From Candidatus Latescibacterota bacterium (GTDB lineage Bacteria; Latescibacterota; UBA2968), in NCBI GenBank assembly GCA_022821275.1, contig JAJEDY010000031.1:1-36160 (forward strand): DNA of 36,160 nucleotides, written 5' to 3'. Under the pieces are notes generated by a model. It saw only the letters and a program-made list of their open reading frames with translations. It was not told the origin of the DNA and did no database searches. Within the stretch, counting starts at the first letter, position 1. Every line of letters begins with the position of its first letter. Positions 6,432-28,487 of this stretch are shown here, in pieces. Made by a program: the position numbers and the translations under genes.

Positions 6432-6450
6432 GGTCTGGGCGAAATGAATT

Positions 6451-8137: not shown

Positions 8138-8156
8138 TATCCGAAGTTGAAATGAG

Positions 8157-10295: not shown

Positions 10296-10296
10296 C

Positions 10297-10780: not shown

Positions 10781-10831
10781 TATAGGATGTTGCAATCTTT
10801 AGAGCGGCATGATCTCGGATATTATGTCCTG

Positions 10832-10934
10832 CAGGACTTACGCAGTTTACAAAAAATTACGCCATTTTGTCACAACATCTTGTATATCTCATTTCAAATA
10901 AACCACAAGATATAGAGATGTTGCGTAAGTCCTG
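10832..10934. mobile_element. 103-bp MITE-like element
   Basis: Perfect 13-bp terminal inverted repeats (CAGGACTTACGCA at 10832-10844 and its complement at 10922-10934) bound a non-coding AT-rich body. The body contains a further internal inverted repeat (around 10873-10890 and 10904-10922). The termini resemble IS5-type ends I recall from other bacteria. It interrupts or truncates the Rpn-like gene that resumes at 10937. A clear target duplication was not found. Confidence 0.65.
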
Positions 10935-10936
10935 TC

Positions 10937-11515
10937 CAGGAGCGTCCCGGCTACCACATCGCAATTCAGTACAGGGTGATCAGGCTGATTGAGGTAGAAG
11001 GCCAGCACGTCCTCGAATCGGGGCAATCGGGTCTGATTCCCTTCACACCTTTGATGAAGCCCCCCGACGAGATGGCCTCGGATGCGTGGTTGCAGCAGTG
11101 TATTCACACGGCTCGGACGCGCCGCATCGCTCGGTCATATAGGGCGGATTATCTCGCTGGCATGGTGGCCCCCGTATAAAAGCATTACGGGGCAGGCTTG
11201 AGTGAGTTGGTATATGAAACTGAAACGATTTCTGATATTATTTTTAAGGAGGGCATCATGGATCTCATCCGCGAATCATCTCTTTTTCAATCCCTCACCC
11301 AACAAAGCAGAGAGGAAAGCTTTGAGCAAGGAGTTAGAGAACGCGCTATTGAAGACATCCTTGACGTGTTGGAGATTCGATTTGACCTCCGCGAGACTGA
11401 CCCTCTATCTGCTCGCATAGCCGCCATAGAAGATTTGCAACGCCTCAAGCAGTTGCTCCGCGAGGCGGTTCAGGTGTCCAGTCTTGAAGCATTTCAGCAT
11501 CTGTTAGATGAGTGA
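10937..11515 (+). pseudogene. Rpn/YhgA-like recombination-promoting nuclease, N-terminally truncated, with an in-frame stop
   Basis: After the MITE the frame reads ERPGYHIAIQYRVIRLIEVE, then LIPFTPLMKPPDEMASDAWL and ADYLAGM. These are phrases of the region that follows the PD-(D/E)XK core in Rpn-family proteins. A TAA at 11177 lies inside a small hairpin insertion. The same frame resumes with LSELVYETETISDIIFKEGI, MDLIRESSLFQSLTQQ and the C-terminal RERAIEDILDVLEIRF to LLDE. The nuclease core itself lies on the lost side of the MITE. A separate product from about 11257 (ATG after AAGGAGGG) could still be made from the C-terminal part. Confidence 0.7.
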
Positions 11516-11549
11516 CACGATTTCCAAAAGACCTGGCGTGTCCGTTGCC

Positions 11550-11572
11550 CAATGGATAATGTGGGCGTTGTT
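11550..11572 (+). repeat. 23-bp exact direct repeat, left copy
   Basis: The sequence starting CAATGGATAATGTGGGC is identical to 13365-13387, and identity stops at the neighbouring base on both sides. The two copies bracket the 1.8-kb segment containing the HEPN and NYN genes. Confidence 0.7.
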
Positions 11573-11601
11573 GGAGGTATTTCTGACAAAACACGGAAAT
11601 T

Positions 11602-11665
11602 GTCTCCATTGAGATAGACAATTGCGGAAGATAGTCTCTATTGAGACTGACAATTGTAGGATTAT
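11602..11665. repeat. Two tandem copies of a 32-bp unit
   Basis: Each unit begins GTCTC(C/T)ATTGAGA and contains GACAATTG, followed by nine variable bases. The second unit holds a perfect GTCTC-TATT-GAGAC palindrome. Two units only, with no adjacent cas genes. Confidence 0.5.
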
Positions 11666-11721
11666 GTCTATAACTTCTGGTACTTGAAATGCCCCCTATC
11701 TCACGCCGGTCCCTAGGATAA

Positions 11722-11753
11722 AAAATGCCTGTGCGATTTTTGACAGGCATTTT
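11722..11753. terminator. Bidirectional intrinsic terminator
   Basis: AAAATGCCTGT (11722-11732) pairs perfectly with ACAGGCATTTT (11743-11753) across a ten-base loop. It is followed on the plus strand by TTCTT. It is placed between the Rpn-like remnant and the convergent HEPN gene, so it could serve both. Confidence 0.7.
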
Positions 11754-12075
11754 CTTATTGGAGTTACCCCGCTTTCTGGCGTTCAATAGCGCACGTCAGC
11801 ATCGGTTTGAGCCTATTGCACAATATCGTCAGAGACTTTAGGACGGGGAGCTATGCGCGTTTGTCCGCTCTCTACTGTATCGTCTTTTCGTGCCATTTTT
11901 GTCCACCTCCTTATATTGAGTGGGATTGTTGAGTATCTTCAGAGCGAAATTGGTCAAGAGGAAGTCTGCGGTTGGCTATTTGTGGCCTGAATACAGGCTC
12001 TGTAAGTCCTATGTTCAGTATTAGTGTCACTGCCGCTTTCGTCTTTTCTTTCCCCTCCTTAGCACGGGCAATACC

Positions 12076-12678
12076 CTATGCTAACCGAGGGAACTCCTCC
12101 TGTAACAGACCAATTGGTACTGCCATAGGGAGACTCTCGAAGTTGGTAATTATTTCTCGTAAGTCATTATGTGAAAGATCTACTTTAGATCCATGCATAG
12201 CAGAATTACGATGATCAGCAACTTTTTTGATGCTTTTGTGAATTGATTGGTGTTTCTCTCTGTCCTCATGATAGCAGTGACTATTTGCCATGAGAGCTTT
12301 ATGGAGAGTAAGGATATTCTTCTTCTTGCCTGATTCATCCGTTATAGATTTGTATAGGCAGCGGAGATAACCTTCTATGATGACACAGATTTCACGAAAA
12401 ACAACATCTGTGTCATCATCGGAGTTGCCCTTTAACCTTGTTTTTAATGTCTTTAACTTCGATTGAAGATCAGGCTCCAACCACACAGAAGGTTTGTCAT
12501 CTTCCTTCAACTGCATATTCTTTGTCATGAACATTATATGTTCCTCACAATCTTCTTTTGACAAAAACATGCAACGCGAGGTAGCAACTATTTTTCCATC
12601 TTCACTGAGTATTATCCAAATCCACTGATGCTCTCCAGTGAATGTTGGAATTTGCATAGTGCGATATGCAGGTTGCAT
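12076..12678 (-). CDS. HEPN-domain protein with a DUF1508-like N-terminus
   Basis: The C-terminal part (about residues 90-185) is helical and carries DHRNSAMHG, an R157-x4-H162 motif typical of the HEPN RNase superfamily. It follows a helix with REICVIIEGYLRCLYKSI. The N-terminal 60 residues (HQWIWIILSEDGKIVATSRC, then SKEDCEEHIMF) resemble the DUF1508/YegP fold: a beta hairpin with a DG turn, then a helix. The start has a good AAGGAG at five bases. An NYN-domain gene lies upstream on the same strand, with a 77-base gap. A HEPN-NYN pair suggests an RNA-targeting toxin or defence module. The domain assignments rest on motifs only. Confidence 0.55.
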   Translation of the reverse strand: MQPAYRTMQIPTFTGEHQWIWIILSEDGKIVATSRCMFLSKEDCEEHIMFMTKNMQLKEDDKPSVWLEPDLQSKLKTLKTRLKGNSDDDTDVVFREICVIIEGYLRCLYKSITDESGKKKNILTLHKALMANSHCYHEDREKHQSIHKSIKKVADHRNSAMHGSKVDLSHNDLREIITNFESLPMAVPIGLLQEEFPRLA

Positions 12679-12755
12679 TTTTACTCCTTATTTTGGGGGT
12701 TATGTAGAATAGTGCCGAGAGGTTGGAGGATTTACTGCCATTGTATTGGACTTCT

Positions 12756-13113
12756 TTATTGCCATTCTGGTGGTCTGTGAAAAGTGCCGTTCGCATCAGT
12801 CAATGTATTAGGCAGTTGACTAAGTGAGAGAACACCAGGTCTAATTTGACGTATAAACGAGGCATATTTTAGAAGCGTTTGTGATTTTCGGAGTTTATAT
12901 CGAGTGCCAGTACGCGGATCAATCGCACCCGCAGGGAATACAACACCTACTTTCAAGTTTATATCTTGAGTCACAATGCGGATAGCCTCCCCTAAGTCGG
13001 AGTCATTTGATACCACAATAGCAACCTCATAATCCTTGTTATGAGCATCGTTTAATAGGTGAACAGCAAGGTTGACATCTGATCCTTTGTTTTCATTAAA
13101 TCTCCAAAATGCA
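12756..13113 (-). pseudogene. NYN-domain (LabA/DUF88-like) RNase, N-terminally truncated
   Basis: The frame reads FWRFNENKGSDVNLAVHLLN, then YEVAIVVSNDSDLGEAIRIV and KVGVVFPAG, ending QLPNTLTDANGTFHRPPEWQ. These are hallmarks of NYN/LabA-type PIN-like nucleases: the KGSDVNLA-x-HLL helix and the VVSNDSDL motif with catalytic acids, plus the conserved tail. The N-terminal DG-x-N strand with the first acidic residue is missing. The frame runs into a perfect 12-bp hairpin at 13114-13141 and reaches a stop with no usable start codon. A short product from the GTG at 13016 is possible but would lack half the active site. Confidence 0.65.
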
Positions 13114-13141
13114 GAAGCCGTATAGAACTCTATACGGCTTC
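13114..13141. repeat. Perfect 12-bp hairpin at the NYN breakpoint
   Basis: GAAGCCGTATAG (13114-13125) and its exact complement (13130-13141) are separated by AACT. Homology to NYN proteins fades exactly here. It may be a palindromic insertion or the scar of a deletion. Confidence 0.6.
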
Positions 13142-13364
13142 GCGCCCTGCTCCCGAAGCAACAGGGGTGGTTAATTATTTACAAATTCAACCCGGCCCCA
13201 CTGACGAGTCCGGGGGCTTCAGCACTGAATGTCTGAAGGGGCAATGCTCAAAATATATAGGAATATAAAAATAGTGTCAATTATTTTTGACACTGGGGCA
13301 TTCTTTATACGGAAATTGAGTACATGGGGCAATATAGCGTCTGTAAATTTTTCTGATATTATCT

Positions 13365-13387
13365 CAATGGATAATGTGGGCGTTGTT
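13365..13387 (+). repeat. 23-bp exact direct repeat, right copy
   Basis: Identical to 11550-11572 and in the same orientation. Together they flank the HEPN/NYN segment. Confidence 0.7.
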
Positions 13388-13677
13388 ACCTAAAAAATGA
13401 GGGGACGACAGGGAGGGATACCATTACCTTGCCGCCCCCGAAGACCGGGCTGGAGTGAAGGGATATCTCGGCCCGGTCGTTGTGTTCAAGGGGTTCCGTA
13501 TGAACACTGATCAAACGGCTGCAAACGTTTTTGGTGTCAAATTTCGAGGAAAAAAAATGGATCCCGGTACAAAAATATAGAGAGGTATAAAAAAGCTGAG
13601 TATTTGTGGGATTTTTCACTAAATTATGATACCAGAAATTCTCGTGTTATGTGTGACATGTGAGTGATACCTTTTCT

Positions 13678-13726
13678 TATTCACACTTCCTACTTCACAC
13701 TTCTTACTTCCTACTTCACACTTCTC
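13678..13726 (+). repeat. Heptanucleotide tandem repeat, about seven units
   Basis: Seven consecutive 7-mers of the form ACTTCNN (the first unit is degenerate) run from 13678 to 13726. They end two bases before the ribosome binding site of the NIPSNAP gene. Such repeats in a leader can change length by slippage. Confidence 0.7.
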
Positions 13727-13739
13727 CTGGAGATTTTCT

Positions 13740-14081
13740 ATGATTTACGACATGCGAACCTACGACCTGAATCCCGGTGCTTTGCAAGCCTATATGGATG
13801 CAGTGCGCGAAGTGGCACTTCCTCTGCGCGAAGATTATGGGATTAAACTTGCCGGGTGGTATTACACCGATATTGGGAAGTTAAATCGCGTTGTTCATAT
13901 CTGGGCGTATCGCGATTATACCCATTTTGATCAGGCGCGGCAGGCGGTGCGTAGCGATCCCCGGTGGGTTAATGACTATCTGCCCCGCGTTAAAGGGCTT
14001 GTGGCGCGCCAGCAAGATCAAATTATGCTCGCGTCCGATTTTTTTGAGGCCCGGGTTCCAGCGCTGTCGGAAGATGCGTGA
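13740..14081 (+). CDS. NIPSNAP family protein
   Basis: The 113-residue protein begins MIYDMRTYDLNPGALQAYMD and contains GIKLAGWYYTDIGKLNRVVH, then IWAYRDYTHFDQARQAVRSD. This is the ferredoxin-like NIPSNAP fold, a dimeric alpha-beta barrel domain with an R-x-Y opening, a GW strand, an N-R-V-x-H-x-W-x-Y strand and a following helix. The length is that of a single domain. Bacterial members are largely uncharacterised and often sit near catabolic genes. The ATG has GGAGA at six to seven bases, directly after a heptamer repeat. The gene converges on the next one, with eight bases between stop codons. Confidence 0.85.
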   Translation: MIYDMRTYDLNPGALQAYMDAVREVALPLREDYGIKLAGWYYTDIGKLNRVVHIWAYRDYTHFDQARQAVRSDPRWVNDYLPRVKGLVARQQDQIMLASDFFEARVPALSEDA

Positions 14082-14089
14082 TTCTGTCC

Positions 14090-15043
14090 TTAGTCGTCAT
14101 CCCGGCCTGGAGTGTTCAGGCGGAACAGCACGGGGTGGTGATCTGAATAGTATTGTGGAAATAGGTTCCTATCGTATGGGTCGCCGGGATAGGTTTCGGG
14201 ACCTTGCCATGTACTGCGCATCTGGTCGATGAGGTTGATGACTTGAAAATCAAACGCTTCATCTATTTCGTCTAACTTAGCCGGGCGATACATGACGTGG
14301 TCATAGGGTTTGCTGCTTTTGACTGCTGTGTTCGTCTTTCGGCATTCGTCGTTGAGCGATACAAATCCCCGTGGTGTTACTGCTTTAAGTTCTGCGGGAT
14401 TTTCGATGTTCATATCCCCTACGATGTAGAAGTCCTGTTCCTGCGCGTCGTGTTGGTCGATCCAGTCAGCGATGTTCGAAAGCTCAGTCTTGCGTTGTTC
14501 GTCTTTGCTTTTGCCGGGAGACAAATGGACGTTGATTACGACAAAGTCCATTTTGCCATTCAATGTGCGGAAGCTGTGGGCGTGTGGTACGCGGGGATAT
14601 ACGGGATGGGCAGAGCGGTCTTCTGCGAGGAATGCATTGGGTAGATCATTGGCAATTTTCAGTTTGTCGGGTTTGTAAAAGACGACGGACCATTCGGTGC
14701 TCGATCCTCTGTTGTGGATGTTTTCGCCTCTTCCCGTGTCTTCACAAGATAGAGAGTAATCAAAGCCCTGTGTGCTCATGGCATCGAAGAATGCATCGGC
14801 TTCGAGGTCTTCGCTATAGGATGTGCCATCGCAGTATTGGCTGTTATCGGGTGGTGCGACGAGTTCTTGGACGACGACCATGTCGTATTTTCCGACCAAT
14901 TGGGCAAGTGCTTCGTTGTCCTTTTTTTTGTATAGTCCGAGGAATTTGATGTTGAAAGAACAGATCGTGATTTGTTGGTCAGAGACTTGTGATCGGCAAC
15001 CGAATAACAACAGTAGCATGGAGAATAAAAGATATTTTTTCAT
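14090..15043 (-). CDS. Endonuclease/exonuclease/phosphatase family lipoprotein
   Basis: The chosen start gives MKKYLLFSMLLLLFGC, a lipoprotein signal with lipobox LLFGC, so the product is probably membrane-anchored and faces the periplasm or outer surface. The body has the EEP fold signatures: ICSFNIKFLG at the start, VVVQEL (metal-binding Glu), DFVVINVHLSPGKS, the acidic turn YIVGDMNIENP (catalytic Asp-x-Asn), and the final SDHHPVLF (catalytic Asp-His). All active-site elements look intact, so it is probably a secreted nuclease or phosphodiesterase. A longer TTG start at 15091 would bury the signal peptide and is less likely. Confidence 0.85.
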   Translation of the reverse strand: MKKYLLFSMLLLLFGCRSQVSDQQITICSFNIKFLGLYKKKDNEALAQLVGKYDMVVVQELVAPPDNSQYCDGTSYSEDLEADAFFDAMSTQGFDYSLSCEDTGRGENIHNRGSSTEWSVVFYKPDKLKIANDLPNAFLAEDRSAHPVYPRVPHAHSFRTLNGKMDFVVINVHLSPGKSKDEQRKTELSNIADWIDQHDAQEQDFYIVGDMNIENPAELKAVTPRGFVSLNDECRKTNTAVKSSKPYDHVMYRPAKLDEIDEAFDFQVINLIDQMRSTWQGPETYPGDPYDRNLFPQYYSDHHPVLFRLNTPGRDDD

Positions 15044-15245
15044 TTTAATTGTCAGGTTCTTATTAAAGTTCTGGGAGGTCGCGATTTGCAATGGCGTTTT
15101 TGAATATAAAGGTAATTATACGCAAAAAGTAACGTCTTCAAAATCGGTATCCCGGGGAGGGGTGAAAAAAAATACTTGAAGTTCGCTTGCAATTTCTCGA
15201 CCATGAGCGCGGGAACATCTGACAATTCTGAACAGGAGATTTATG

Positions 15246-15803
15246 ATGAGCGATGGACAAATCATTTTTCAAGATACATTTGACGGCGGTCTGGATAGCG
15301 GCTGGTCGTGGTTGCGGGAACAGCCCGATGATTGGCGGATTCGGGATGGCGGTCTGGAGATTTGCGTGCGTCCCGGTGTGAAGGATACGGTGCAAAATGC
15401 CCTGCTCAGGTCTGCGCCGGATCGGGGTGAGGGTGCTTATGCGGTCGAGGTTACGATTACCAATCACAGCCAGCCGACGCAACAATACGAGCAGGCGGGT
15501 ATTACGTGGTATCACGATGGGGAACCGGTGTTCAAAGAGGTGAAGGAGCTCATTGACGGCGATCTGTACATTATTCCAGGGAAGCAGCCGATGCCGACGC
15601 AGAGCGTTCGTTTGCGGCTTATCGTTACCGCGAGTACATGGGAAGCGCAGTTTCGTGCTGAGGGTGAGACCGTATTCCAGACTGCGGCTTCGGGTGAATT
15701 GCCTCCTCCGGGGGATGATCAGGTGAGTATTCAGTGCTATAATGGTCCAGAAGAAGGCGATCACTGGATACGGTTTTCGGATTTTTGTATTAGGCGCGTA
15801 TAA
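15246..15803 (+). CDS. DUF1349 (concanavalin-like) domain protein
   Basis: The 185-residue protein is a single beta-sandwich domain. Its signature phrases are DTFDGGLDSGWSWLRE and WRIRDGGLEICVRPG near the start, YEQAGITWYHDGEPVFKEVK in the middle, and VSIQCYNGPEE with WIRFSDFCI at the end. The family is related to laminin-G/concanavalin-like folds and is thought to bind or act on carbohydrates, but its chemistry is unknown. No signal peptide is present. Two adjacent ATGs follow AGGAG. The second, at seven bases, has the better spacing. A perfect terminator follows the stop at once. Confidence 0.8.
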   Translation: MSDGQIIFQDTFDGGLDSGWSWLREQPDDWRIRDGGLEICVRPGVKDTVQNALLRSAPDRGEGAYAVEVTITNHSQPTQQYEQAGITWYHDGEPVFKEVKELIDGDLYIIPGKQPMPTQSVRLRLIVTASTWEAQFRAEGETVFQTAASGELPPPGDDQVSIQCYNGPEEGDHWIRFSDFCIRRV

Positions 15804-15837
15804 AAAAAGCACCATCTCGAAAGAGATGGTGCTTTTT
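15804..15837. terminator. Strong bidirectional terminator with GAAA tetraloop
   Basis: GCACCATCTC (15809-15818) and GAGATGGTGC (15823-15832) pair perfectly around GAAA. The stem is extended by A5 and T5 runs on either side. It serves the DUF1349 gene on the plus strand and the cold-shock gene on the minus strand. Confidence 0.9.
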
Positions 15838-15861
15838 GGTTAATTCTGAATTTATTTCAGA

Positions 15862-16062
15862 TTACTGCTTTGTGACATTCGCCGCCTGGAGGCCCTTGGG
15901 TCCCTGGGTAATATCAAATTCGACAACGTCACCTTCGGACAAAGACTTAAAGCCTTCAGCCTGAATCGCCGAGAAATGGACAAAGACATCTTCGCCATCG
16001 TCTTGCTCGATAAAGCCGAATCCCTTGGCGTCGTTAAACCATTTAACTCTTCCTTCTGCCAA
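15862..16062 (-). CDS. cspA: Cold-shock protein
   Basis: The 66-residue protein is a complete single cold-shock domain with both nucleic-acid-binding motifs, RNP1 (KGFGFIEQ, residues 13-20) and RNP2 (DVFVHFSAI, residues 25-33). It would bind single-stranded RNA or DNA and melt mRNA structure. The start codon is TTG, preceded by AGGTGGTG, and no ATG is available in frame at this position. The promoter is about 165 bases upstream, giving the long structured leader typical of cold-shock genes. That leader contains a terminator-type hairpin 46 bases before the start. Confidence 0.95.
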
Positions 16063-16281: not shown

Positions 16282-19200
16282 TTAAACTGTAGCCCCGGCG
16301 AGTAACACCTGTCCCTTTTCCGTGTACTGCGCTTTATCTTCTGGTGCTACGGTGCGCCAGATGAGGAATTGTTTGCGCAGTGCGTTCATAAAGTTCTGGT
16401 TGACCCGCCGCCATGACGAGGCGTCGCCGGAGAGCCGATCTATGGTCAATGTCATGGCAAAAATATTGTGCTCACCTGTGGGTAGTGCTTCAAAATGCAC
16501 TTGCTGGCTTACGCCCAGATCATAAGGTGCCAGCCAGATTGTTGTGTCAATTGTATGTCCCCGTCCGGTTTCGGTTTCAACCGCGCCAAACCGCGCGCCA
16601 TCGGTGTAAAATGTACCCAGGCTCTCACCTGCATGTGCCTGGAAATAATCGACCAGGAATACGGACAGGCCAAATACGTCTTTGCCGCCCACGGTAAATG
16701 GAAATTCAAAATGCCAGCGGTCGCCTTCAGGCTCGGGAAATTTCCAGCGGCGCGTTACATCGGGGACAGCCATCATGGATGCCTGACGCGCGGGATAGAG
16801 CGATGAGAGCAAAACCACCAGCATGACCAGCATGGAGGAGGCCACGGTTGAGAGTGCCGAGTAGTTCACGGTAAGCCCTTGTAGGGCATCTTGCCACAGT
16901 AAAATTTTGACGATGCTTTGTCCCAAAAGATACCCGGCCACGGTTCCCAGGACAGCGTAAACACATGCCTCGGCTATAAATAAGAAGGCGATGTGTACAG
17001 GTGCTAACCCCACGGAAGAATAGATGCCGATTTCGCGGAAGCGCTCGTACACCGATCCCATCATGGTGTTGAGTACGATGAGCGCGGCGACCAGAATGGG
17101 GATAAACAAATTGGCCATGCCCTGCAAAGACGTATCGCCCAGGGAACTGTAAACCGCGACGCGTATGCCGCCATCTGCTGTTGGTATGCCAGCGAATAAT
17201 ACCACGGATAATCGCGACAAAAAAGACTTGATCTCGGCTTCTACATCCACTTCTTCGTGAAATCGCACGGCTACGGATTGCAGTGGACTGCCCACATCGC
17301 GCAGCAGGGCATAGGGTACGATCAAGATGTCATCGGGGTCCAGATGCTCAAATGGTACGGTATCGACTTCGGGGCGCTCCAATCCCTGTCGCTCGCGGTT
17401 CTCGGTCTGCGACATGGCGGTGATGAATTCGTCTTCGGTGACTTGAAAATCTGCGGGTGTTATTTGTTCTTCATCCAGATCGGCAAATAGGCGCATTTTT
17501 TCGGAGTTGATCAGGCCGATTACCGTGAGTTGCTTGCCAAAGAGGCGAATGTGCGCTTTGCCGATGTCTTGTTCTGTGACACCTAAAATCTCCGCTGTTC
17601 GATCGGGCAAAATACAGGCTGACTCGCCGGGTTGAAACCAGCGTCCGATCCGCAGCAGGGTATCGACCTGCGTTACCTGGGCTTCTTCTGGCGCCAGTCC
17701 CAGGATCCCCTGAATGCGGGAATTTTTCTTTTGATATCGGACTACGGCTTTTGATTTTTTGTCTTCTCTTGTCGCAATATACCAGCTTCGAGGCGTTACG
17801 GTGCCTCTGTCTTTGAAATTTATCCGCGCGTAATCATAAGCTGTGTCTTCCAGTGGTCCCCAGAATTTGCTTCTGATCAGTATGCCGGGATATGGACCTT
17901 CCACATCGCGGTGAAGCTGGTGAAATTCCAGTGCCGATTTTATAGAGGTGAAGGACAGCACGGTAAAGGTGAGGAGTACCAGGGTTGCAAATGTCAACCA
18001 GGTGCGCATTTTGCGCTTTTTCATGTTGGCAATGCCCAGTTGGAATGCCGCTACGGATGCGCTGATGCGTCCCACGTCGGTTTCGTGCAATAATACTTCG
18101 GCGCTGCGGAGCCGCCGGATATTTTCGTTGAACCGGCCCGATAGTATCGAGATGACGAAGATCGCCAGTGCCAGGATGACAAAAGCGAGTAAGATTACAA
18201 AGGGATTGGAGAGGTCAAATGCGGGGTGTACCTGTGAGAGGAATATCCAGATGACGAGAAAGACCGCGCCGATCCCGCCAATTTGCATGCGAATATCGGA
18301 GAAGGTGAAAATCAGCCGTTCGAGGAAAAACGCACAGGGGATGACCAGGAGCATGAAGAAGATCACGCCGCGGATGACGTCGTTTTGCGTTGTTTTTACG
18401 TCTGGATATGCCCGCGATTCAATGCCCATGCCCGCGCGCGTGTGTTTTACAAAGGCATCCCATTGTTTTGCGTGCAGTGCGGTTTCTGCCTGGTCTAAGT
18501 GTTGTTTGGCCTGTGCGTGCAAGACTTCCAGTCGCTGGTTTTCAATTGAGTACTGACGCAGTTTTCGCATGCGCGATTCGTTTAGCATCCACATATCTCG
18601 CGCCGCCTGATAGGGCGTGCGGATTAAGGAGCCTGAGGATAGGGTTTGAAATCCCTCGCCGCGGGCATCCCACTCGTTATCCGCACTTTTTGAGTTGAGT
18701 AGCAAAAAGCGCACGCCGATTGCGCCTGCGCGCATCGCTATTTTCACTTTTTCACCCGGGGAGGTATAGACGACGCCGACGGGTTCGTCTGGTCCAAATC
18801 CGATGTCATAACCGTATTCTTGCGGTGCGGTATTGCCCACCCCATAGACGCTGATGTTGGATAAGGTGTTCAAATATCGGGGATCGACTGTGCCGTAGAA
18901 ATCGGTTGCCACGCAGGGGAATAGGATGACGGTTTGTTTTGTGATCCACCAGTTCATGTTGAAGTGGCCGCTGTAAATTTTGCCCTGTCGTCCCTGGTTG
19001 GGCGCGTACGTGATTTCGCCGCTGTGTGGGTCGATGTAGTATGCCCGCACGTGTACGCGGCGCTCTGCTACGCCCGGGATATAGTATTCGCCGTTTTCGT
19101 CTGCGAGGTCGTAATAAATGCGCCGTACGCCTTTTATCGATTTTTCCAGGCCCATTCGCATGGCGGCTATGGCACCTGGGCGCGCTTTATCGGGTGTGAT

Positions 19201-20808
19201 GCTGCGTCGGGGAAAGGTGCGCACATATCCTTTGAGGCCGCGCATGCGATCGTCGGGGTCCAGTTTGTAGTCGGGTAAAAAATCACCGCTGTTGAACGAG
19301 AGATCCAGCATGCCTGCGAGTACGCGAATCTGTTTGGTCAGGTTGGTGTAGTTTATATACTCTGCCCGGTCCAGGGGGGTATCTACGCGGAATCGCGCGT
19401 CGTTTACGGTTGTCAATGAGAGTGCGGGGGTGCCTGCGTAGAGTACGACTTCGCTGTCGCTTTTGATATTTTCGCCGGGGATGTACATGTCCCAGGTCAT
19501 GCCGCCTTTGGGGTTGATGCCATCGACCATGACGTCTTTTGACGGCACGCCCATGCCTTCGGCAATGGCGGTTGCATAGCGTACAAAGGATTTGCTAAAT
19601 GTGGCAAAGAATCGCGTGGAGAAGTAATTGACCGCTGTGTTGACACCAAATCCCGCTGTTTGGGTGGATATGCCTATTTCATCGGTTTGGCTCGAGAGGT
19701 CCAGGCCGATGAACAGGTCGATGTCTATGGGTTCGGTCATGAGCGCGGCAAAGTGTTCTTCTTTGCGCGAGTGCCGGTTCAGGAAGTCGCATATACCCCG
19801 GAAGCCCAGGTGGTGTGCGGACGATGCGAGGAAGAGGACGGTGTATTTGGGGCGGTGTGCTTGAAAGTATTCGGCAAGGCGCATGAGCGCGACGATACCA
19901 CACGCCATTTCAGCACCGGGTGCCTGTGCGGGTACGACGGACATGGCGTCGTAGTAGGCATTGATGACGACGATTTTTTTGCTCTGTTCTGGATCCGATC
20001 CTTTGACCCAGCCCAATACGTTGGAGGCGTCGTTTTTCTTCCAGGGCATCCGGGATTCGAGTTGTACTTCTATTTCGCCCTGGTCTGATAGGCGCGCGCG
20101 CAGTTTTTTTCCGTGTTCGCGGTCGATCCAGTATCGCTCTACGCTGTTGGGTACTTGCAAAAATTTTGTTTCGGCTTGTGTGTAAGACGTGGTATCTGGC
20201 GCGATGAAGATGATTTGTTGCGCGCCCAGTACTGCGGCGTTGAGCCATTTGTTCCAGGTGTTGAAGTTCAGGAGTACGACGGTGTTTTCCACGTCTTTGC
20301 CGTCGTAGGCTTTAAATTCGCCATCGCCGCCGTCGATCAGGCGCGTTCGTATGCCGCCCGGCGGCAAGGTGGAGGTTTTTACCAGGTTGGGCCATAGTCC
20401 GGAGAGTGGAAAGACTTCGCCGGATGAGACGATGGTCAGTTGGCTGCCTTCATCTACGGGTGAGGTTACGCCGTAGGTTTCTGTTTCTACATTTTCCAAG
20501 CCGAGTGATCGGAAGCGTTGTTCGATAAATTGTGCGGCGGCATCGTGTCCCGGATAGCCCGGTACGCGGGATTTGTACCGGGTGAAGGTCGCCATTAATG
20601 CGCGTACTTCTGTTTCTGTGATTTTGCGTTTGACGCGATCAGCTACGACTTCGGCTCCCGGTACAGGGGCTGGCTCTACGGGTTCAGGAGTTTGTAATCC
20701 CAGCATATTACGCAGCAAAGGATCAACTGTATCGGGTCCTGAGATGACCGCGCCAAATCCAAATACGGCGATCCCGAGCAATGCCAACCAACCGATGCGA
20801 CGATCCAT
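16282..20808 (-). CDS. Giant membrane protein: inactive M28-like domain fused to an FtsX/MacB-type permease
   Basis: 1508 residues. A membrane anchor (residues 6-24) is followed by an M28 aminopeptidase-like domain (about 55-530) whose metal ligands are gone. The HYD motif is NAYYD (283-287), the D-N-x-S-G motif is EMACG (300-304), and the E-E motif is SAHH (330-333). A beta-rich linker (RRIYYDLADENGEYYIPGVA) precedes three hydrophobic helices (about 850-940). Then comes a MacB/FtsX-type permease: QLGIANMKKRKMRTWLTF, a periplasmic loop, VLNTMMGSVYERFREIGIYS and further helices. No ATPase gene adjoins it. The dead peptidase may bind a peptide or amino sugar ligand for the permease. The start has AAAGGA. 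Confidence 0.8.
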   Translation of the reverse strand: MDRRIGWLALLGIAVFGFGAVISGPDTVDPLLRNMLGLQTPEPVEPAPVPGAEVVADRVKRKITETEVRALMATFTRYKSRVPGYPGHDAAAQFIEQRFRSLGLENVETETYGVTSPVDEGSQLTIVSSGEVFPLSGLWPNLVKTSTLPPGGIRTRLIDGGDGEFKAYDGKDVENTVVLLNFNTWNKWLNAAVLGAQQIIFIAPDTTSYTQAETKFLQVPNSVERYWIDREHGKKLRARLSDQGEIEVQLESRMPWKKNDASNVLGWVKGSDPEQSKKIVVINAYYDAMSVVPAQAPGAEMACGIVALMRLAEYFQAHRPKYTVLFLASSAHHLGFRGICDFLNRHSRKEEHFAALMTEPIDIDLFIGLDLSSQTDEIGISTQTAGFGVNTAVNYFSTRFFATFSKSFVRYATAIAEGMGVPSKDVMVDGINPKGGMTWDMYIPGENIKSDSEVVLYAGTPALSLTTVNDARFRVDTPLDRAEYINYTNLTKQIRVLAGMLDLSFNSGDFLPDYKLDPDDRMRGLKGYVRTFPRRSITPDKARPGAIAAMRMGLEKSIKGVRRIYYDLADENGEYYIPGVAERRVHVRAYYIDPHSGEITYAPNQGRQGKIYSGHFNMNWWITKQTVILFPCVATDFYGTVDPRYLNTLSNISVYGVGNTAPQEYGYDIGFGPDEPVGVVYTSPGEKVKIAMRAGAIGVRFLLLNSKSADNEWDARGEGFQTLSSGSLIRTPYQAARDMWMLNESRMRKLRQYSIENQRLEVLHAQAKQHLDQAETALHAKQWDAFVKHTRAGMGIESRAYPDVKTTQNDVIRGVIFFMLLVIPCAFFLERLIFTFSDIRMQIGGIGAVFLVIWIFLSQVHPAFDLSNPFVILLAFVILALAIFVISILSGRFNENIRRLRSAEVLLHETDVGRISASVAAFQLGIANMKKRKMRTWLTFATLVLLTFTVLSFTSIKSALEFHQLHRDVEGPYPGILIRSKFWGPLEDTAYDYARINFKDRGTVTPRSWYIATREDKKSKAVVRYQKKNSRIQGILGLAPEEAQVTQVDTLLRIGRWFQPGESACILPDRTAEILGVTEQDIGKAHIRLFGKQLTVIGLINSEKMRLFADLDEEQITPADFQVTEDEFITAMSQTENRERQGLERPEVDTVPFEHLDPDDILIVPYALLRDVGSPLQSVAVRFHEEVDVEAEIKSFLSRLSVVLFAGIPTADGGIRVAVYSSLGDTSLQGMANLFIPILVAALIVLNTMMGSVYERFREIGIYSSVGLAPVHIAFLFIAEACVYAVLGTVAGYLLGQSIVKILLWQDALQGLTVNYSALSTVASSMLVMLVVLLSSLYPARQASMMAVPDVTRRWKFPEPEGDRWHFEFPFTVGGKDVFGLSVFLVDYFQAHAGESLGTFYTDGARFGAVETETGRGHTIDTTIWLAPYDLGVSQQVHFEALPTGEHNIFAMTLTIDRLSGDASSWRRVNQNFMNALRKQFLIWRTVAPEDKAQYTEKGQVLLAGATV

Positions 20809-21578: not shown

Positions 21579-23963
21579 TTACTCTACAACGCGAAAATAG
21601 ACGTATTTTCTATCCGTCTGATCCGTCTGTTTGTCCTTTGCCAGCACGGTCAATTGATAAATGCCTTCAGGCACCTGGTTCACATCGATTTGCAAATACG
21701 TGAAGTCATCTTCTCGATTGCCTTCATAATTCGCTGTCACGGTTCGCGTTAAATCACCATGGCGTGACCGCTCGATCTTCAAGCTCTCAGCAGCGATGTG
21801 ATGGACTTGTCCACCACTCGTATAAACCTTCGTCTCTCCCCACATAAGGCTGTCGGCAAATACTCTACTGGGCACCTCGCTATCCGTTGAAAGACCAGTC
21901 TGCAAACCCTGAGCCTCTATATCATCTATTTTTCTACTCCGCAGATCAATCTCTGTTTTGCCCCTCGTCTCAATCAGACTTTGAGATGTGAATAAGGTTG
22001 GAGACACGGTATCCACCTCTGGCTTGCCGATGGTGTAGGAAATCTCATACTGTGTGCTGCCAAAATCGTCGCGTTGGAGATCGTACAGTTCCAGATAGAT
22101 AAAGACTGGTTCAGATGGAGAAAATGTTCGGACAGGATTGGGTGTGATGAGCAGGTCGTCACGGCTTTCTATCAACGCATTCCGCGTTTGAATATCGCTG
22201 CCAACCAACAGATCACTCAGATGAAAGGTTTCCCGATCATACACGAAGGATTTCTCAGTGCGTGCTATACCAATTGCTCCCGATGTTTGATCCATTAATT
22301 CCACCGAAAAATGGTATTTCCCCTGAGACACAGACAACAATCGCGAGATCAACAAGTGATCTTTGCGATGCCGTGCAGCGGCGTTTTGGACCGGCTTCTG
22401 CGGCGACAAAGTGAAAGTCTCGGATTTGCGATCGTTATACACATCCTGCCACTGGTCATCAAAGAGGAACACGCCATCCCAAAAACTCACCTTGCCCGTT
22501 TCGGGATTTTCTGTTAATCGGTCTTTTGGAATCATATAGCTGAGTTCGACCCGCATGCTGTTACGTTCTTCAAAGGCGGCGATCTGATAGGGCAAAGTAT
22601 ATTTTCGATTGAGATAAGGATCGACAAATTGCTGCGCTGTCTTTCTGAAGATATGATGTGGTGCTTCTGTAAGTGTACGTGGTATGCGAGAAAAATTAGT
22701 GTATCTCATCGCGAAACTGGGATACTGAGCACCGAAGTAGAATTCACGAAAGGCACTTGCTCCTATAGGCAGACGCTGTCTGACACCATACCAGGAACCG
22801 CCGCAAAAATGCCAGATATCATCCGTAGTGCCACAAAATTTGAACTGAAAGTTTTCGTAATACCAGAATTCCATCATTGCGGCAGTCAAAGCCTCTTTAG
22901 AATCCCAGGCCCCTTTATAGGTTGTCATACGACGTCTGTATCTTCCAAATTTGATATAAGTCTTCCCCATGTCTGTCTGCCAGCCTTCCACATCATCCAA
23001 AAATCGCCTGAATCGCAAATTTGCATACGCCATACGCCCAAAGTGCGCCATCTTTCTTTCGTTAAAATCAGACAAATAGAGCGGGTCCTGACGCTTCCAA
23101 AACATCTCGCGTTCCAAGAGCGCATCAAGCGTCTGGGTTGTATCGCGAGATGCATGCTCTTCTTCGGACACAAGCAGGTCAATTGATTCGAGTAACTCGC
23201 GTTCTTCAATACTCATCAAGTCAAGGGCGCGTTGATAGTATTCATGTGATTCATAGAATTCGCCAATCTGATAGGCGGCAAGTCCACAGAATAACAGCGC
23301 GTTTTTGTCATCTGGATATTGTGCGTGCAGAGCTTGCATCAAGGCGTGAAAGGCATCCCAGTATTTATCTTCAAAGTAGAGTATGCCCAGCAAATAATAG
23401 GGTTGCTGATTGGTCTCATCCAATTGGATGCTTTTTCGCAAGACCTGAATGGCTTCTTGTTTGGCTTCCTGGGCAAATCCTCTAAAATCTCGGGTTTGGG
23501 AATTATCTTTTATTTTGAGAAACTCATATACCCAGAACATACCTATACTATTGAGGACATCCGTATTTTTGGGATGTTTTTCCATCACGTCCTCGTATTG
23601 GTGGAATGCCCGTGACCGAAAGCCCTGCGTCCACCAGATTTTTCCTCGTGTCAGCCGATACGCAATATTGTCGGGGTCAATCGCGATTGCCTGCTGTATC
23701 CTCCGCATTGCGCGCTGTCGGCTATTTACGCTGTGGTTCAGCAGGTGCAGTTTGGCCAATTCATTATATGCAGGGGCATAATCTTTCTCTTTGGAAATAA
23801 TCTCCTCGAAAGCTTTGATACTTTCCTTGTGACTCACCTGACCAATTTGCTCCAGTGCATTCTGAAACAGCGCGTCTATTGCGGTTTCCCCTCTGGACGA
23901 GACAGGTCCCAAAAGGCAAGCCAACGCGATCAATCCCATGCGAATTGTAAATCGCTTCTTCAT
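21579..23963 (-). CDS. GWxTD-domain protein with TPR repeats (third of three)
   Basis: The chosen ATG (AAAGGG upstream) gives a signal peptide, MKKRFTIRMGLIALACLLGP. The N-terminal third has TPR helices (YAPAYNELAKLHLLN, IAYRLTRGKIWW, NQQPYYLLGILYFEDKYWDA). The centre holds the defining region: WKRQDPLYLSDFNERKMAHF, then VEGWQTDMGKTYIKFGRYRR, the only copy here with a true GWxTD sequence. The C-terminal third is beta-rich and ends in a domain shared with the two paralogues (a VFIYLELYDLQRDDFGSTQY segment). GWxTD proteins are FCB-group exported proteins of unknown role. The usual GPPDEI after the motif is replaced by GRYRRR. Confidence 0.85.
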   Translation of the reverse strand: MKKRFTIRMGLIALACLLGPVSSRGETAIDALFQNALEQIGQVSHKESIKAFEEIISKEKDYAPAYNELAKLHLLNHSVNSRQRAMRRIQQAIAIDPDNIAYRLTRGKIWWTQGFRSRAFHQYEDVMEKHPKNTDVLNSIGMFWVYEFLKIKDNSQTRDFRGFAQEAKQEAIQVLRKSIQLDETNQQPYYLLGILYFEDKYWDAFHALMQALHAQYPDDKNALLFCGLAAYQIGEFYESHEYYQRALDLMSIEERELLESIDLLVSEEEHASRDTTQTLDALLEREMFWKRQDPLYLSDFNERKMAHFGRMAYANLRFRRFLDDVEGWQTDMGKTYIKFGRYRRRMTTYKGAWDSKEALTAAMMEFWYYENFQFKFCGTTDDIWHFCGGSWYGVRQRLPIGASAFREFYFGAQYPSFAMRYTNFSRIPRTLTEAPHHIFRKTAQQFVDPYLNRKYTLPYQIAAFEERNSMRVELSYMIPKDRLTENPETGKVSFWDGVFLFDDQWQDVYNDRKSETFTLSPQKPVQNAAARHRKDHLLISRLLSVSQGKYHFSVELMDQTSGAIGIARTEKSFVYDRETFHLSDLLVGSDIQTRNALIESRDDLLITPNPVRTFSPSEPVFIYLELYDLQRDDFGSTQYEISYTIGKPEVDTVSPTLFTSQSLIETRGKTEIDLRSRKIDDIEAQGLQTGLSTDSEVPSRVFADSLMWGETKVYTSGGQVHHIAAESLKIERSRHGDLTRTVTANYEGNREDDFTYLQIDVNQVPEGIYQLTVLAKDKQTDQTDRKYVYFRVVE

Positions 23964-24045
23964 AGCACATCCCTTTCTTTTTTCGTCTCGATTGCCAAGA
24001 TAGTCCACCGTTATTTTATACGGCATTATACAGCAATAGTTTCGA

Positions 24046-26031
24046 TCAATACCATTTGTGAACGGTGTGTCCCTGGGGCATGAACCATATCGCATCTACG
24101 ACGAGGCCCAGGGCGGTTGACAGGACGTATGCCACGAGCATGCCGACGAAGAACGGCTTTGAGCGGCGGTAAAAGGGCGCTCCGCCTATGCGCAACAATG
24201 TGAATTTGATCAGCCAGGCTACAAAGATGGTGAAGCTGGTGAGGCGGGCGAGCCCGGTGCCCGATAGGGCGAGTCCAATGGGGTGCAGGGGCCACCAGGT
24301 GAATTGGTATCGCAGGAATAACAGGGCGTACATGGCGAGTGCCCCGATGAGAAAGAAATAGTAGTCGATCTCTTCCATTGGCTGGGGGGATATGATCGCG
24401 TTGACAGAATTTTGATATCCGCCCACGCCTGCGCGAATGATGAGCCAGTTTGGCGAGAAATTGTACCCGCCAATGCGATAGCCCAGCCAGATTGTAAAGA
24501 GGGTGGATGAGATGATGCCGACTACAAAAGCCACGCAGAGGCCGCCGAAGAGGGGGCGTTTGTTGCCGGGGATGAAGTCGGACAGACGGTTGATGTGCGT
24601 GCCCACGGAAAAGGTAAATCCGCGGAAGTGATCGATGGCGACAGATGCCGGATAGATCAGGGCATGAGACGCCGCTGGGATGGCGCGGGCACCGCCCATG
24701 AGCGCGGTTGTCAGTGTCCAGGCAGTAGATGGTGCCTTTATGTAAATAAGTCCGGAATCGGCCAGAATTTTCGATACGGCGCCATAGGACAAAAACATGA
24801 ATGGCAACAGGATGGCGAGGACTTTCCACGCCATGCCCGATGCGGATAACCAGACCAGTGTGTAGGCAATTGAGGCGGCGAGGCAGCAGAAGGCTGCGCG
24901 ATAGGATATGAGTTCTCGGCTGTCGTCTATGTGCTCGCTTTTTGGATGGAGCGCTTTTTGAAATGCCTGTTTCAGATGCGCCCGCGCTATCCACACCCAC
25001 CACAGAGATAGGGCGATAAATGCGCCCGTTGTTTGCCAGAGATAGCGTTTGGAGGCGTAGTAGCGGTTAAAGGCCGTTATGCCCAGTTGATCGAGGATGC
25101 CGGATTCTACGATGAATACGAGATCAAAGAGCCACATGCTGAACAGTAATTCCAGGCTCGCAAAATACGAAAAGCATATTCCCACGGTGCTTATGAATAC
25201 CCACTGCGGTGGAAAGTTCCGGCCAATAGGGACCCAGGTGCCAGCGGCGGTTGGAAATTTTGGCAGTGCGGGATGAAACCACGCGATGATGTTCCACGTA
25301 AATATTACGCCCACGACGCCGAATCCGGTCCAGAACATCCGCCCCTGCATAAATTCGGGCAAATAGGTGCGTCCGGTGCCGGGTTGTGTGGTTAGTTCGA
25401 TGATGGGTTCCATCGCGGGATAGACCAGTTTTTCGTGCTCTGCCCATTGTTTGCGCATGATGACCGAGGCACAAAAACAGGCGAGTGCCACTGCACATAT
25501 AAAGGTGAACCACCAGAAGAGGGGACCGAGCCAGGTGGCCCAGGGTACGGGCGCGCCCGCGGGCAAGCCGTCGTAGAACCAGGATATTGCGCCGTCGCGA
25601 TTGGACGGTATGATCCATTCGGGCAGGTAGGGGTGCAAAAACTCTGCCCATCGGTTTTCGGGTGTGGAGAAATAATAGGGGGTTACGATGACGCCGACCA
25701 GATATCCACTTACGCCGTATGTGGGACCGAGCGAACAGATAAAGCCCATTGAAAAAATCGCGAGCCATTCGCCCGGGGAAAAGGCAAAGCGTTTGCCAAA
25801 GTAGCGCGCGAGCACACTGCAGACGATCAAACACAGCAGTGTGAGCATCAGATTGCCCATGGGCATGTGGCTGTAGGCCATGAAGGAGCTGTGCATGATA
25901 TATCGCGCGACTGTTGCCAGTGCGTTGATTGCAATGACCAGCACAAGCCCAAAGATCAGCGACCGCACGGTTACGCCTCTGTCTGTGTGAGCCGCCGGGT
26001 CTGCGATTGGATGTGTTTGTTCTGCGGTCAT
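24046..26031 (-). CDS. DUF6785-type polytopic membrane protein
   Basis: 661 residues with about a dozen or more hydrophobic helices spread evenly over the length (for example SLIFGLVLVIAINALATVA, LMLTLLCLIVCSVLARYF, LFWWFTFICAVALACF). Signature phrases include FAFSPGEWLAIFSMGFI, EHEKLVYPAMEPIIEL and FMFLSYGAVSKILADSGLIY. I recall this layout in DUF6785/DUF6784 proteins, which resemble oligopeptide-transporter (OPT)-like carriers; substrates are unknown. The gene starts 27 bases after the second GWxTD gene stops, with no good ribosome binding site, so it is probably translationally coupled. The third GWxTD gene follows after 82 bases. Confidence 0.75.
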   Translation of the reverse strand: MTAEQTHPIADPAAHTDRGVTVRSLIFGLVLVIAINALATVARYIMHSSFMAYSHMPMGNLMLTLLCLIVCSVLARYFGKRFAFSPGEWLAIFSMGFICSLGPTYGVSGYLVGVIVTPYYFSTPENRWAEFLHPYLPEWIIPSNRDGAISWFYDGLPAGAPVPWATWLGPLFWWFTFICAVALACFCASVIMRKQWAEHEKLVYPAMEPIIELTTQPGTGRTYLPEFMQGRMFWTGFGVVGVIFTWNIIAWFHPALPKFPTAAGTWVPIGRNFPPQWVFISTVGICFSYFASLELLFSMWLFDLVFIVESGILDQLGITAFNRYYASKRYLWQTTGAFIALSLWWVWIARAHLKQAFQKALHPKSEHIDDSRELISYRAAFCCLAASIAYTLVWLSASGMAWKVLAILLPFMFLSYGAVSKILADSGLIYIKAPSTAWTLTTALMGGARAIPAASHALIYPASVAIDHFRGFTFSVGTHINRLSDFIPGNKRPLFGGLCVAFVVGIISSTLFTIWLGYRIGGYNFSPNWLIIRAGVGGYQNSVNAIISPQPMEEIDYYFFLIGALAMYALLFLRYQFTWWPLHPIGLALSGTGLARLTSFTIFVAWLIKFTLLRIGGAPFYRRSKPFFVGMLVAYVLSTALGLVVDAIWFMPQGHTVHKWY

Positions 26032-26058: not shown

Positions 26059-28425
26059 TCACCTGTTTGCAATTCGGAATATGCCTTCTCGAACAGTGGT
26101 CTGGGCGCTGTTGAGGTCTTTTACCGTCATGATCAAACGATACCGCCCGGGTTCAACGCGGCCGATGTCCAGTTCGACGTAGTCGGCTATCCAGAGTTCG
26201 CGGCCCGTTTGTTCGTATTGTACGGTGATGAGTTCCCCGTCTCTTCGCTTTATTCTGGGTTGCGAGGCGAGTTCGCGCCCTTTTTCCGGTGCTATGGCAA
26301 AGGCGACTTCGTAGCGCGTTTGTCCAAATGTGTCTCGCGTGAGGTTGTAAATTTCAAAATAGGCGAAGATGGGCGTGCCCTGAAAAAAGGTGCGGGATGG
26401 CGATGTTGTGATGCGCCATTTGTTGCGTGCAGATAAGGTATCGCTCTGGTTTTCGGTTGGGGATGGTTCTTCAATATGCTGTGCAATTTGTAGATCGCTG
26501 AGCATTAAGCTGTCACCTGAAAAGTCGTGCAGGCGGACCTTTTCCCGATAATTGCCCAGGCGGTTGGTGTGGATCCGCCACATTTGTACGGCGAGGTCGT
26601 ATTCGCCAGGGGATAGGGGGATGTCGATGCGGTCTCTGGCGATCAGGCTTTTTCCCCGAAGTCCGGGGGGTAGGGGTATGGCGACATTTTCTCGCAGGCG
26701 TTTTGCTTCGCGGTTCTGGTCATCTACGAGGGCGATGCGTCGCTCGACTACGACTGTGGTGTCCGGGTCGCTGGACATCGCCACTTCGTCTATTGGGAGG
26801 CCGATGTTGATCTGGAGGTCTGTTTTGCCATTTTTCCCGCGAAAGGACAGGGCCTCGTAGTAAAAGTTGAGCGGGTCGAGGTCGGATGTGTCGTAGCGTT
26901 CGGGTTTTTTCGCTGCTGCTGTTGCGACTTGCGATGCGGGTGAGTAGTCGTTCATCAGTTGGAGGAATCTGAGTGGGGATCCGCGGGAAGCGACATCGTA
27001 AGCGTCTTCTCTATCGATGGTCGGTACGGGGGCGTAGCCGTAGATATTCGTGTGCATTTCGTCGGTGAATACGACTTCTATGCCGTGGTTGATGTCGGGA
27101 TAGATCCACACTTCCCAGGGTACGCTGGAGAAATCGTTCCCGGCTGTGACGGGTTTCCATCCGCGCAGGCCGAAGGTGCCGTCGTCTTCTTCGAGGGGGA
27201 GGTTGCTTTCGACGTTCCGAAGCGCGATGCGGACGGGAAATACGGGTCCGGTATAGGTCGCGGTTGTGCCGGGACGGCCGTAGAGTTGAAATGCGAGTTT
27301 TTCCTGGATGCGTTGTACGGGGATCGGCACGCTGGCATTGGGTTCTCGCCAGGTGGAGCGGTAGTCCGGTTCGCCGTATCGGATATAGATTTCGCCCCGC
27401 TGGTCAAAGGGGTATTTGTAACGCCCGAAGAAGGTTCGCGCATGCCAGACGCGGCGGTAGTGTTCCGCGCGTCTCTGGCTTCCGCCAGTTGTGCCAAAGG
27501 GGTCTTTGCGGATCCAGAAGGCGTTCAGAAAAGCGTCCACATCTCGGTCTGGGATTGCGCGATACGATGCGATCTCTTCCGGGGTGGCGATCAGGGAAAT
27601 ATCTTCATAGATTGCTTTTTCTCGTTGAGATAGGGTGTCCAGATATTTTTGAAATACGGATAGAGCGTCTTCATAACGCCGTGAGGCCAATAGTACCTGC
27701 GCCAATAGCGGAAGTCTGCGCGCATCGGACATGTGCGCGGCAATCTGGGTCACGATGTTGTAGCGTTTTTCGGTCAGGAATTCAAGGGCGAATTCAAGGG
27801 CGGGCGTTTCGTCCTGTGCGCCATGGGACAGGTAGGTGTTGTAGTGGGATAGTGCTTGAAGGGTATCGCCTTTTTTGCGATAGAGACGCGCGAGTAACAA
27901 ATGGGTGGGACCATAGCGGGGGTTGATTTGCAGTGCTCTGTTGGCCGCTTCCATTGCGTCTTTTTCTTTGCTGCGTGCCAGATAGGTTCTGCCGAGGACT
28001 TCGTAGCTTTCAGCGCGGTTGGCGTCGGCCTGTATCGCCTGTTTGAGGTGGGAGGTCGCGCGTTTGAGTTTGTTGCGATATTCCAGAAGGACGCGTCCCA
28101 ATCCGAGGTGGGCCTCTGCTTGATGCGGGTCGTTTTTCAGGGCGCGAACAAATGCGGCTTCGGCACTGTCGGGCAGTTGGAGTCGGAGATAGAGATGGCC
28201 GATACGAGCGAGTAGCAGGGTGGAGTCCGCTGAACTCGGCACGGCTGCGTTTAATGTTTTGAGGGCTTCTCTGATCAGGGTTTTTCGACCAAGAGTCTGA
28301 GCTTTGAGATACAGGGCGTCCAGGTCTGTGTCTTCGGCGGAGGCAGGTCCAAATGGGATCAGACATAAAATCCCGATACAATACATCCGCGATAAGAAAC
28401 TATTTATCCGAATATTCATAATCAT
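26059..28425 (-). CDS. GWxTD-domain protein with TPR repeats (second of three)
   Basis: Signal peptide NIRINSFLSRMYCIGILCLI, ending PASAED. The N-terminal 280 residues are TPR repeats (LLLARIGHLYLRLQLPDSAE, AEAHLGLGRVLLEYR, AESYEVLGRTYLARSKEKDA). The core domain has NAFWIRKDPF, then AEHYRRVWHARTFFG and YKYPFDQRGEIYIRYGEPDY, so the GWxTD sequence is replaced by YPFDQ while the RG-x-IYI-x-YG-PD strand is kept. The C-terminal beta domains match the paralogues (IFAYFEIYNLTRDTFGQTRY). The start is uncertain: ATGs at 28464, 28425 and 28419 all lack a strong ribosome binding site. The best signal peptide comes from 28425 or 28419. Confidence 0.8.
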   Translation of the reverse strand: MIMNIRINSFLSRMYCIGILCLIPFGPASAEDTDLDALYLKAQTLGRKTLIREALKTLNAAVPSSADSTLLLARIGHLYLRLQLPDSAEAAFVRALKNDPHQAEAHLGLGRVLLEYRNKLKRATSHLKQAIQADANRAESYEVLGRTYLARSKEKDAMEAANRALQINPRYGPTHLLLARLYRKKGDTLQALSHYNTYLSHGAQDETPALEFALEFLTEKRYNIVTQIAAHMSDARRLPLLAQVLLASRRYEDALSVFQKYLDTLSQREKAIYEDISLIATPEEIASYRAIPDRDVDAFLNAFWIRKDPFGTTGGSQRRAEHYRRVWHARTFFGRYKYPFDQRGEIYIRYGEPDYRSTWREPNASVPIPVQRIQEKLAFQLYGRPGTTATYTGPVFPVRIALRNVESNLPLEEDDGTFGLRGWKPVTAGNDFSSVPWEVWIYPDINHGIEVVFTDEMHTNIYGYAPVPTIDREDAYDVASRGSPLRFLQLMNDYSPASQVATAAAKKPERYDTSDLDPLNFYYEALSFRGKNGKTDLQINIGLPIDEVAMSSDPDTTVVVERRIALVDDQNREAKRLRENVAIPLPPGLRGKSLIARDRIDIPLSPGEYDLAVQMWRIHTNRLGNYREKVRLHDFSGDSLMLSDLQIAQHIEEPSPTENQSDTLSARNKWRITTSPSRTFFQGTPIFAYFEIYNLTRDTFGQTRYEVAFAIAPEKGRELASQPRIKRRDGELITVQYEQTGRELWIADYVELDIGRVEPGRYRLIMTVKDLNSAQTTVREGIFRIANR

Positions 28426-28487
28426 CTTATACCAATGAAAAAATATATTAACCTTGCCCATCAATCAGTCCCATCAATAGAGCTGTC

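Follow-up and report, generated by a model that had tools for sequence, protein, structure and literature searches.

The M28 aminopeptidase fold also occurs in non-catalytic proteins, among them transferrin receptor 1 and nicalin. In group II ECF transporters, one energising module is common to several substrate-side subunits. The type VII ABC machines described so far act by moving periplasmic parts instead of carrying substrates through the membrane (PMC5985334, PMC12646458), and a Porter subdomain was described as present in every type VII member known to the authors of PMC5985334. In MacB, the amphipathic and major coupling helices, which meet the ATPase, occupy the positions ahead of TM1 and between TM2 and TM3 (PMC5985334).

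Here we describe M28-FtsX, a protein of the Latescibacterota in which an M28-type domain is fused to an FtsX-type permease. In the literature searched, with subscription journals largely outside its scope, neither this fusion nor DUF6785/DUF6784 was found described. On balance, M28-FtsX probably serves as the larger half-permease in a type VII ABC machine that is split, powered in trans and equipped with a non-catalytic binding head.

Anatomy and surroundings of M28-FtsX

The window, i.e. the whole stretch of 36,160 nucleotides that was analysed, contains the following features of the gene, its protein and a conserved neighbour:

16282..20808, minus strand: M28-FtsX gene, 1508 residues, exact open reading frame with ATG start, Pfam matches, genus orthologues at 87-96% identity
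20809..20820, minus strand: ribosome-binding-like site GAAAGGAACCCC (AAAGGA), seen by eye just upstream of the gene
20731..20799, minus strand: N-terminal transmembrane or signal anchor, residues 4-26 (hydropathy)
19294..20628, minus strand: pseudo-peptidase head, M28 with PA insertion, residues ~61-505 (Pfam, PDB profile, model, Foldseek)
18574..19281, minus strand: beta-rich middle domain (residues 510-745), with a weak likeness to CarboxypepD_reg in part of the family
18124..18384, minus strand: three extra transmembrane helices, residues 809-895 (hydropathy)
17929..18003, minus strand: FtsX TM1, residues 936-960, with conserved NMKKRKMRTWLTF directly before it (hydropathy, conservation)
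17134..17928, minus strand: MacB-like periplasmic core domain, residues 961-1225 (Pfam, model, Foldseek)
16774..17133, minus strand: FtsX TM2-4 with coupling-helix-like YERFREIGIYSSVGLAPVHI, residues 1226-1345 (Pfam, hydropathy, conservation, PDB profile)
16285..16761, minus strand: conserved cytosolic domain at the C-terminus, residues 1350-1508, with a tentative SRPBCC/START likeness (Foldseek)
24046..26031, minus strand: DUF6785/DUF6784 polytopic membrane protein, Pfam E 4e-93, conserved neighbour

The fusion of an M28 domain and a MacB/FtsX permease in one chain of 1508 residues, as described in the earlier note, was borne out by the exact reading frame and by Pfam, which matched M28 at residues 263-497 (E 2.6e-8, above cut-off), FtsX at residues 1235-1344 (E 7.3e-15) and MacB_PCD at residues 1004-1118 (E 4e-4, below cut-off). 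According to hydropathy, an N-terminal helix is followed by a long periplasmic stretch up to about residue 808, and the periplasmic domain between TM1 and TM2 comprises 265 residues. Pfam gave no firm match for the middle and C-terminal domains. The C-terminal domain (159 residues) is strongly conserved, and its several unrelated SRPBCC/START-fold matches in Foldseek (E 7e-3 to 2.5e-2) make a tentative, model-based assignment to this fold.

In the permease half, the order of TM1, periplasmic core domain and TM2-3-4, placed after four extra helices, is the type VII layout as judged by hydropathy. The segment before TM1 and the one between TM2 and TM3 rank with the best-conserved stretches of the protein and contain invariant residues. 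Profile searches against the PDB returned YtrF, MacB and LolC, and an AlphaFold2 model of residues 780-1508, although modest (pLDDT 66, pTM 0.41), placed MacB and LolCDE on top in Foldseek. M28-FtsX scored far below all the curated NCBIfam cut-offs for LolCDE, ADOP and MacB. In its sequence and predicted topology, M28-FtsX resembles a type VII ABC half-permease. Altogether 74 FtsX-domain matches were counted in the genome of the window, many of them paired in reading frames of about 800 residues that are ADOP-like by layout.

The earlier note had stated that no ATPase adjoins the gene, and indeed no ABC-ATPase-like reading frame was found in the window, which extends 16.3 kb to one side of the M28-FtsX gene and 15.4 kb to the other. 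The reading frame at 15138-15815 was considered as a concealed ATPase and rejected, having neither a family match nor ABC motifs. Positions 1-16000, on the 3' side of the M28-FtsX gene, hold few and short reading frames, some of them recombinase/integrase-like or transposase-like by eye; this flank is possibly mobile or decayed DNA. At 14090-15091 (minus strand) a lipoprotein-like protein of the endonuclease/exonuclease/phosphatase type is encoded, with a weak match, below cut-off, to the MnuA family of membrane nucleases.

On the upstream side, a DUF6785/DUF6784-type gene often adjoins M28-FtsX genes in relatives as well. In the window it is flanked by three large TPR and GWxTD proteins (21579-24095, 26059-28464 and 28530-32003, minus strand), and TPR/GWxTD-like genes are located upstream of M28-FtsX in several relatives of the genus too. 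Further on, all on the minus strand, follow a reading frame with a methyltransferase domain and then a GT2 glycosyltransferase domain (32097-33515), a TPR protein with a match of the TMTC O-mannosyltransferase type (DUF1736; 33493-35421) and, at the window edge, a PorV/PorQ-family outer-membrane protein (35446-36141).

Fold and altered site of the M28 head

In the PDB, a profile of the head, built from residues 50-520 of 30 family members, matched an Aneurinibacillus aminopeptidase (E 1e-16) as well as BSAP, transferrin receptor and nicalin. AlphaFold2 modelling of residues 40-845 (pLDDT 86.7, pTM 0.86) likewise gave an M28 fold with PA insertion, with BSAP, TfR1 and GCPII as Foldseek matches; the structure prediction called for in the earlier note therefore assigned the head to M28 plus PA. 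For the alignment of the site, canonical M28 proteins from the same phylum served as reference; weak PF04389 matches outside the M28-FtsX family in the genome of the window had been tried as controls and were dropped, since they looked M20/M42-like by eye. The alignment placed the site as follows:

19948..19956, minus strand: Y285-Y286-D287, replacing the M28 H-x-D motif (NAYYD; His to Tyr285)
19909..19911, minus strand: E300 at the position of the bridging Asp (PGAEMACG), in a loop one residue shorter
19810..19815, minus strand: H332-H333, replacing the Glu-Glu pair (SAHH), H332 in 33/33 members
19699..19701, minus strand: D370, the sole ligand position kept
19381..19383, minus strand: D476, replacing the last ligand His (HTPED in BSAP versus dTPlD here)

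The zinc ligand set of M28, H, D, E, D and H, thus corresponds to Y285, E300, H333, D370 and D476, which leaves one identity. The losses reported in the earlier note, namely the His in NAYYD, the bridging Asp in EMACG and the Glu pair in SAHH, were all recovered when its five-ligand check was carried out against canonical M28 proteins; D370 proved to be the only identity retained. Beyond that note, the last ligand His is replaced by Asp476, one ligand Asp (D370) is kept, and the bridging Asp is not just missing but has been swapped for another acid, Glu300.

The replacements are themselves conserved. Among the 33 family members that cover the M28 site, H332, Y286, D287, R345, R348, W439, R472 and D480 are invariant, so that the position of the catalytic general base, a Glu in M28, is His332 throughout; E300, D370 and D476 are kept in at least 31 members. 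Position 285 is Y in 30, F in two and H in one of the 33 members; at position 333, 19 members have H and 14 have F. Between genus orthologues, dN/dS of the head was 0.07-0.11, similar to the permease half. Random decay of the peptidase domain is ruled out by this site conservation together with dN/dS, and since the replacements are conserved under purifying selection (dN/dS about 0.1), the alignment identifies the head as a repurposed pseudo-peptidase without canonical di-zinc M28 catalysis. A site that was swapped and then held points to a new role. The protein is M28 by fold and lacks both the full ligand set and the catalytic residues, and 'peptidase' is therefore the wrong name for it. The claim that the head is not proteolytic is accordingly upheld for canonical di-zinc M28 catalysis, with sites replaced family-wide, while the set of E300, H332, D370 and D476 could still bind metal.

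Far longer M28-FtsX relatives of 1943-2148 residues were also seen (L092:5258-11089, L067:5190-11456 and L100:2-6448); by pattern, the head motifs are absent from L092.

Candidate partners and their distribution

The distant relatives L072 and L073, from families f5 and f9, carry M28-FtsX in a one-strand cluster in the order DUF6785, TPR, M28-FtsX, OPT-like, C293, PqqD-like, a mini-FtsX of 228 residues and a LolD-like ATPase. Here C293 is the 293-residue protein of this cluster, the PqqD-like protein matches PF05402 (E 7.5e-12), and 'OPT-like' is a working name only for a membrane protein related to DUF6785. The DUF6785 and OPT-like families share a distant relationship; neither matched any PDB entry, so the resemblance to OPT is one of name only. 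In mini-FtsX, about 40 residues lead from TM1 to TM2, without a periplasmic core domain. Parts of the cluster recur in other families, with M28-FtsX, OPT-like, C293 and PqqD-like linked in f4 and PqqD-like, mini-FtsX and ATPase linked in f7; in most f1 and f2 genomes the parts are unlinked.

The genome of the window has three M28-FtsX copies, one on contig C82, one on C90 and one apparently split over C16 and C67. In the tree of the permease half, the window copy is sister to the second copy of the genus (L061, L063), a split which the tree places as a duplication at about genus level, and the C90 copy sits on an old, separate branch. The search for an ATPase partner in this genome, proposed in the earlier note, yielded a candidate pair next to trp genes on C20, a contig other than that of the window:

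L080:6867-7568: mini-FtsX
L080:7577-8359: LolD-like ATPase, directly behind mini-FtsX, with Walker A, LSGGQ and Walker B all intact by eye

C293 and the PqqD-like gene are on C97. The ABC ATPase adjoining the PqqD-like gene there was rejected as a partner, since it sits in a suf operon and is SufC by context. LolD-like ATPases of a second class, at about 62% to that of L073, are encoded near and upstream of paralogue 2 (L084:5631-6443, L036:5244-6053, L054:2346-3104), including on C67; no adjoining mini-FtsX appeared in the gene tables for L084, L036 and L054. Given this second class, the pair on C20 counts as a candidate partner for each paralogue.

Co-occurrence was assessed in 50 genomes of the phylum with a completeness of at least 85%. 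M28-FtsX was present in 47 of them, with 1-9 copies each. Exactly the same 47 genomes had mini-FtsX, with one strong full-length match each, and the same 47 had the OPT-like protein. C293 and the PqqD-like protein were each detected in 45/50, both being absent from G013 and G021 also. All five parts were missing from G048, G052 and G056, which belong to one family (f6) and do have canonical M28 peptidases and other FtsX proteins. As the absences are confined to one family, they amount to about one independent evolutionary event, and stronger evidence than co-occurrence comes from the linkage seen in four families. The architecture and the substitutions of M28-FtsX recur throughout the phylum and are therefore not due to chance. 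The contig scan for orthologues covered close relatives, and its matches titled 'Gemmatimonadota' include at least one genome of the class of the window (L050, the same place as G043).

A proposed shared motor for exchangeable heads

By analogy with known type VII machines, M28-FtsX would form, within the inner membrane, the large half of a split, asymmetric machine of the MacB/LolCDE/FtsX (mechanotransmission) type. The FtsX half, which carries the MacB-like core domain, may pair with the separately encoded mini-FtsX (about 230 residues), and two copies of the LolD-like ATPase, whose gene directly follows that of mini-FtsX, would complete the assembly. ATP-driven movement would be relayed to the periplasmic head, which would move with each round of ATP cycling; with its M28 aminopeptidase fold, canonical catalysis lost and altered pocket conserved, the head presumably binds a ligand. 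Candidate ligands, periplasmic or in the membrane, are a peptide or protein end, a glycopeptide or a lipid head group. The single mini-FtsX compared with 1-9 copies of M28-FtsX suggests that one module drives several paralogues; one mini-FtsX/ATPase copy might thus serve two to several of them in trans, and a polytopic partner of the DUF6785 type is usually encoded alongside each paralogue. That this is a phylum-level envelope machine, in which several pseudo-peptidase-headed half-permeases share one mini-FtsX/ATPase motor together with DUF6785-type, PqqD-like and C293 partners, is a more tentative proposal that we hold to be possible.

The earlier note had taken the missing adjacent ATPase as a sign of sensing instead of ABC work, and a pure ligand sensor, whose FtsX part relays a signal with no ABC ATPase involved, would fit the absence of any ATPase from the 15 kb around the gene in the window, the additional cytosolic C-terminal domain and the non-catalytic head. 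That argument fails, however, on the ATPase and mini-FtsX in the clusters of relatives, on the presence of both on C20, on the co-occurrence of M28-FtsX and mini-FtsX in 47/47 genomes and on the conserved ATPase-facing FtsX motifs of the coupling region, and we consider a pure sensor quite improbable. A binding or sensing role of the head inside an ABC machine, as in BceAB, is possible by analogy. It is unlikely that M28-FtsX uses other ATPases or homodimerises and that mini-FtsX, PqqD-like and C293 are co-distributed by common ancestry instead of forming one complex. The absences all fall in one family, the parts are unlinked in most f1 and f2 genomes and the second LolD-like ATPase is close to paralogue 2, as such a reading would have it, but overlapping subsets of the parts are linked in four families and mini-FtsX is strictly single-copy in all 47 genomes.

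The head might also be a rewired active hydrolase, in which E300, H332, D370 and D476 hold a single metal or work without one and the machine hands substrates to the enzyme fused to it, as has been proposed for YbbAP-TesA, where a type VII ABC machine and a hydrolase are coupled (PMC12646458). All four residues are conserved. A His at the position of H332 is also present in the leucyl aminopeptidase structure 2anp_A (AYAAHE), which we take from its title to be an engineered mutant that is still functional. Nevertheless, Tyr or Phe takes the place of the first metal His in 32/33 members, the second Glu is Phe in 14/33 and the last His is Asp; we know of no M28 peptidase with a ligand set of the E/H/D/D type and consider a rewired hydrolase quite improbable.

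If the split machine with a non-catalytic binding head is correct, type VII ABC machines would no longer be limited to dedicated permease pairs but would include a shared motor whose heads can be exchanged, a modular design inside this superfamily. It would also provide a bacterial example of the M28 fold turned binding module, comparable to transferrin receptor and nicalin, and testable roles for DUF6785/DUF6784 and for a gene set kept in nearly all Latescibacterota examined.

With MacB, LolCDE and FtsEX, M28-FtsX shares the FtsX-type helices, the MacB-like core domain, the conserved coupling region and, as candidate partner, a LolD-like ATPase. In contrast to these, its 1508 residues add a fused pseudo-peptidase head, four extra helices, a middle domain and, at the C-terminus, a cytosolic domain. 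The candidate second half, mini-FtsX, has no periplasmic domain, unlike the type VII members surveyed in PMC5985334 with their Porter subdomain. An asymmetric type VII permease with one half devoid of a periplasmic domain is likewise found in BceAB(S); there, however, BceB unites 10 helices in one chain, whereas the two candidate halves here are separate genes. YbbAP-TesA also combines a type VII ABC machine with a periplasmic module of hydrolase fold (PMC12646458), but TesA is a separate, active esterase, and the module of M28-FtsX is fused, of M28 fold and without the canonical active site. The solved structures closest to the head, BSAP and the Aneurinibacillus aminopeptidase (M28 plus PA), keep the zinc ligands and the catalytic Glu. 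TfR1 and nicalin reuse the M28 fold as a binding module and both match the head profile, TfR1 also by fold; they differ in being eukaryotic and in lacking an ABC permease fusion. Group II ECF transporters have an unrelated fold, and their likeness to the proposed machine is limited to the copy-number pattern of one mini-FtsX and 1-9 M28-FtsX.
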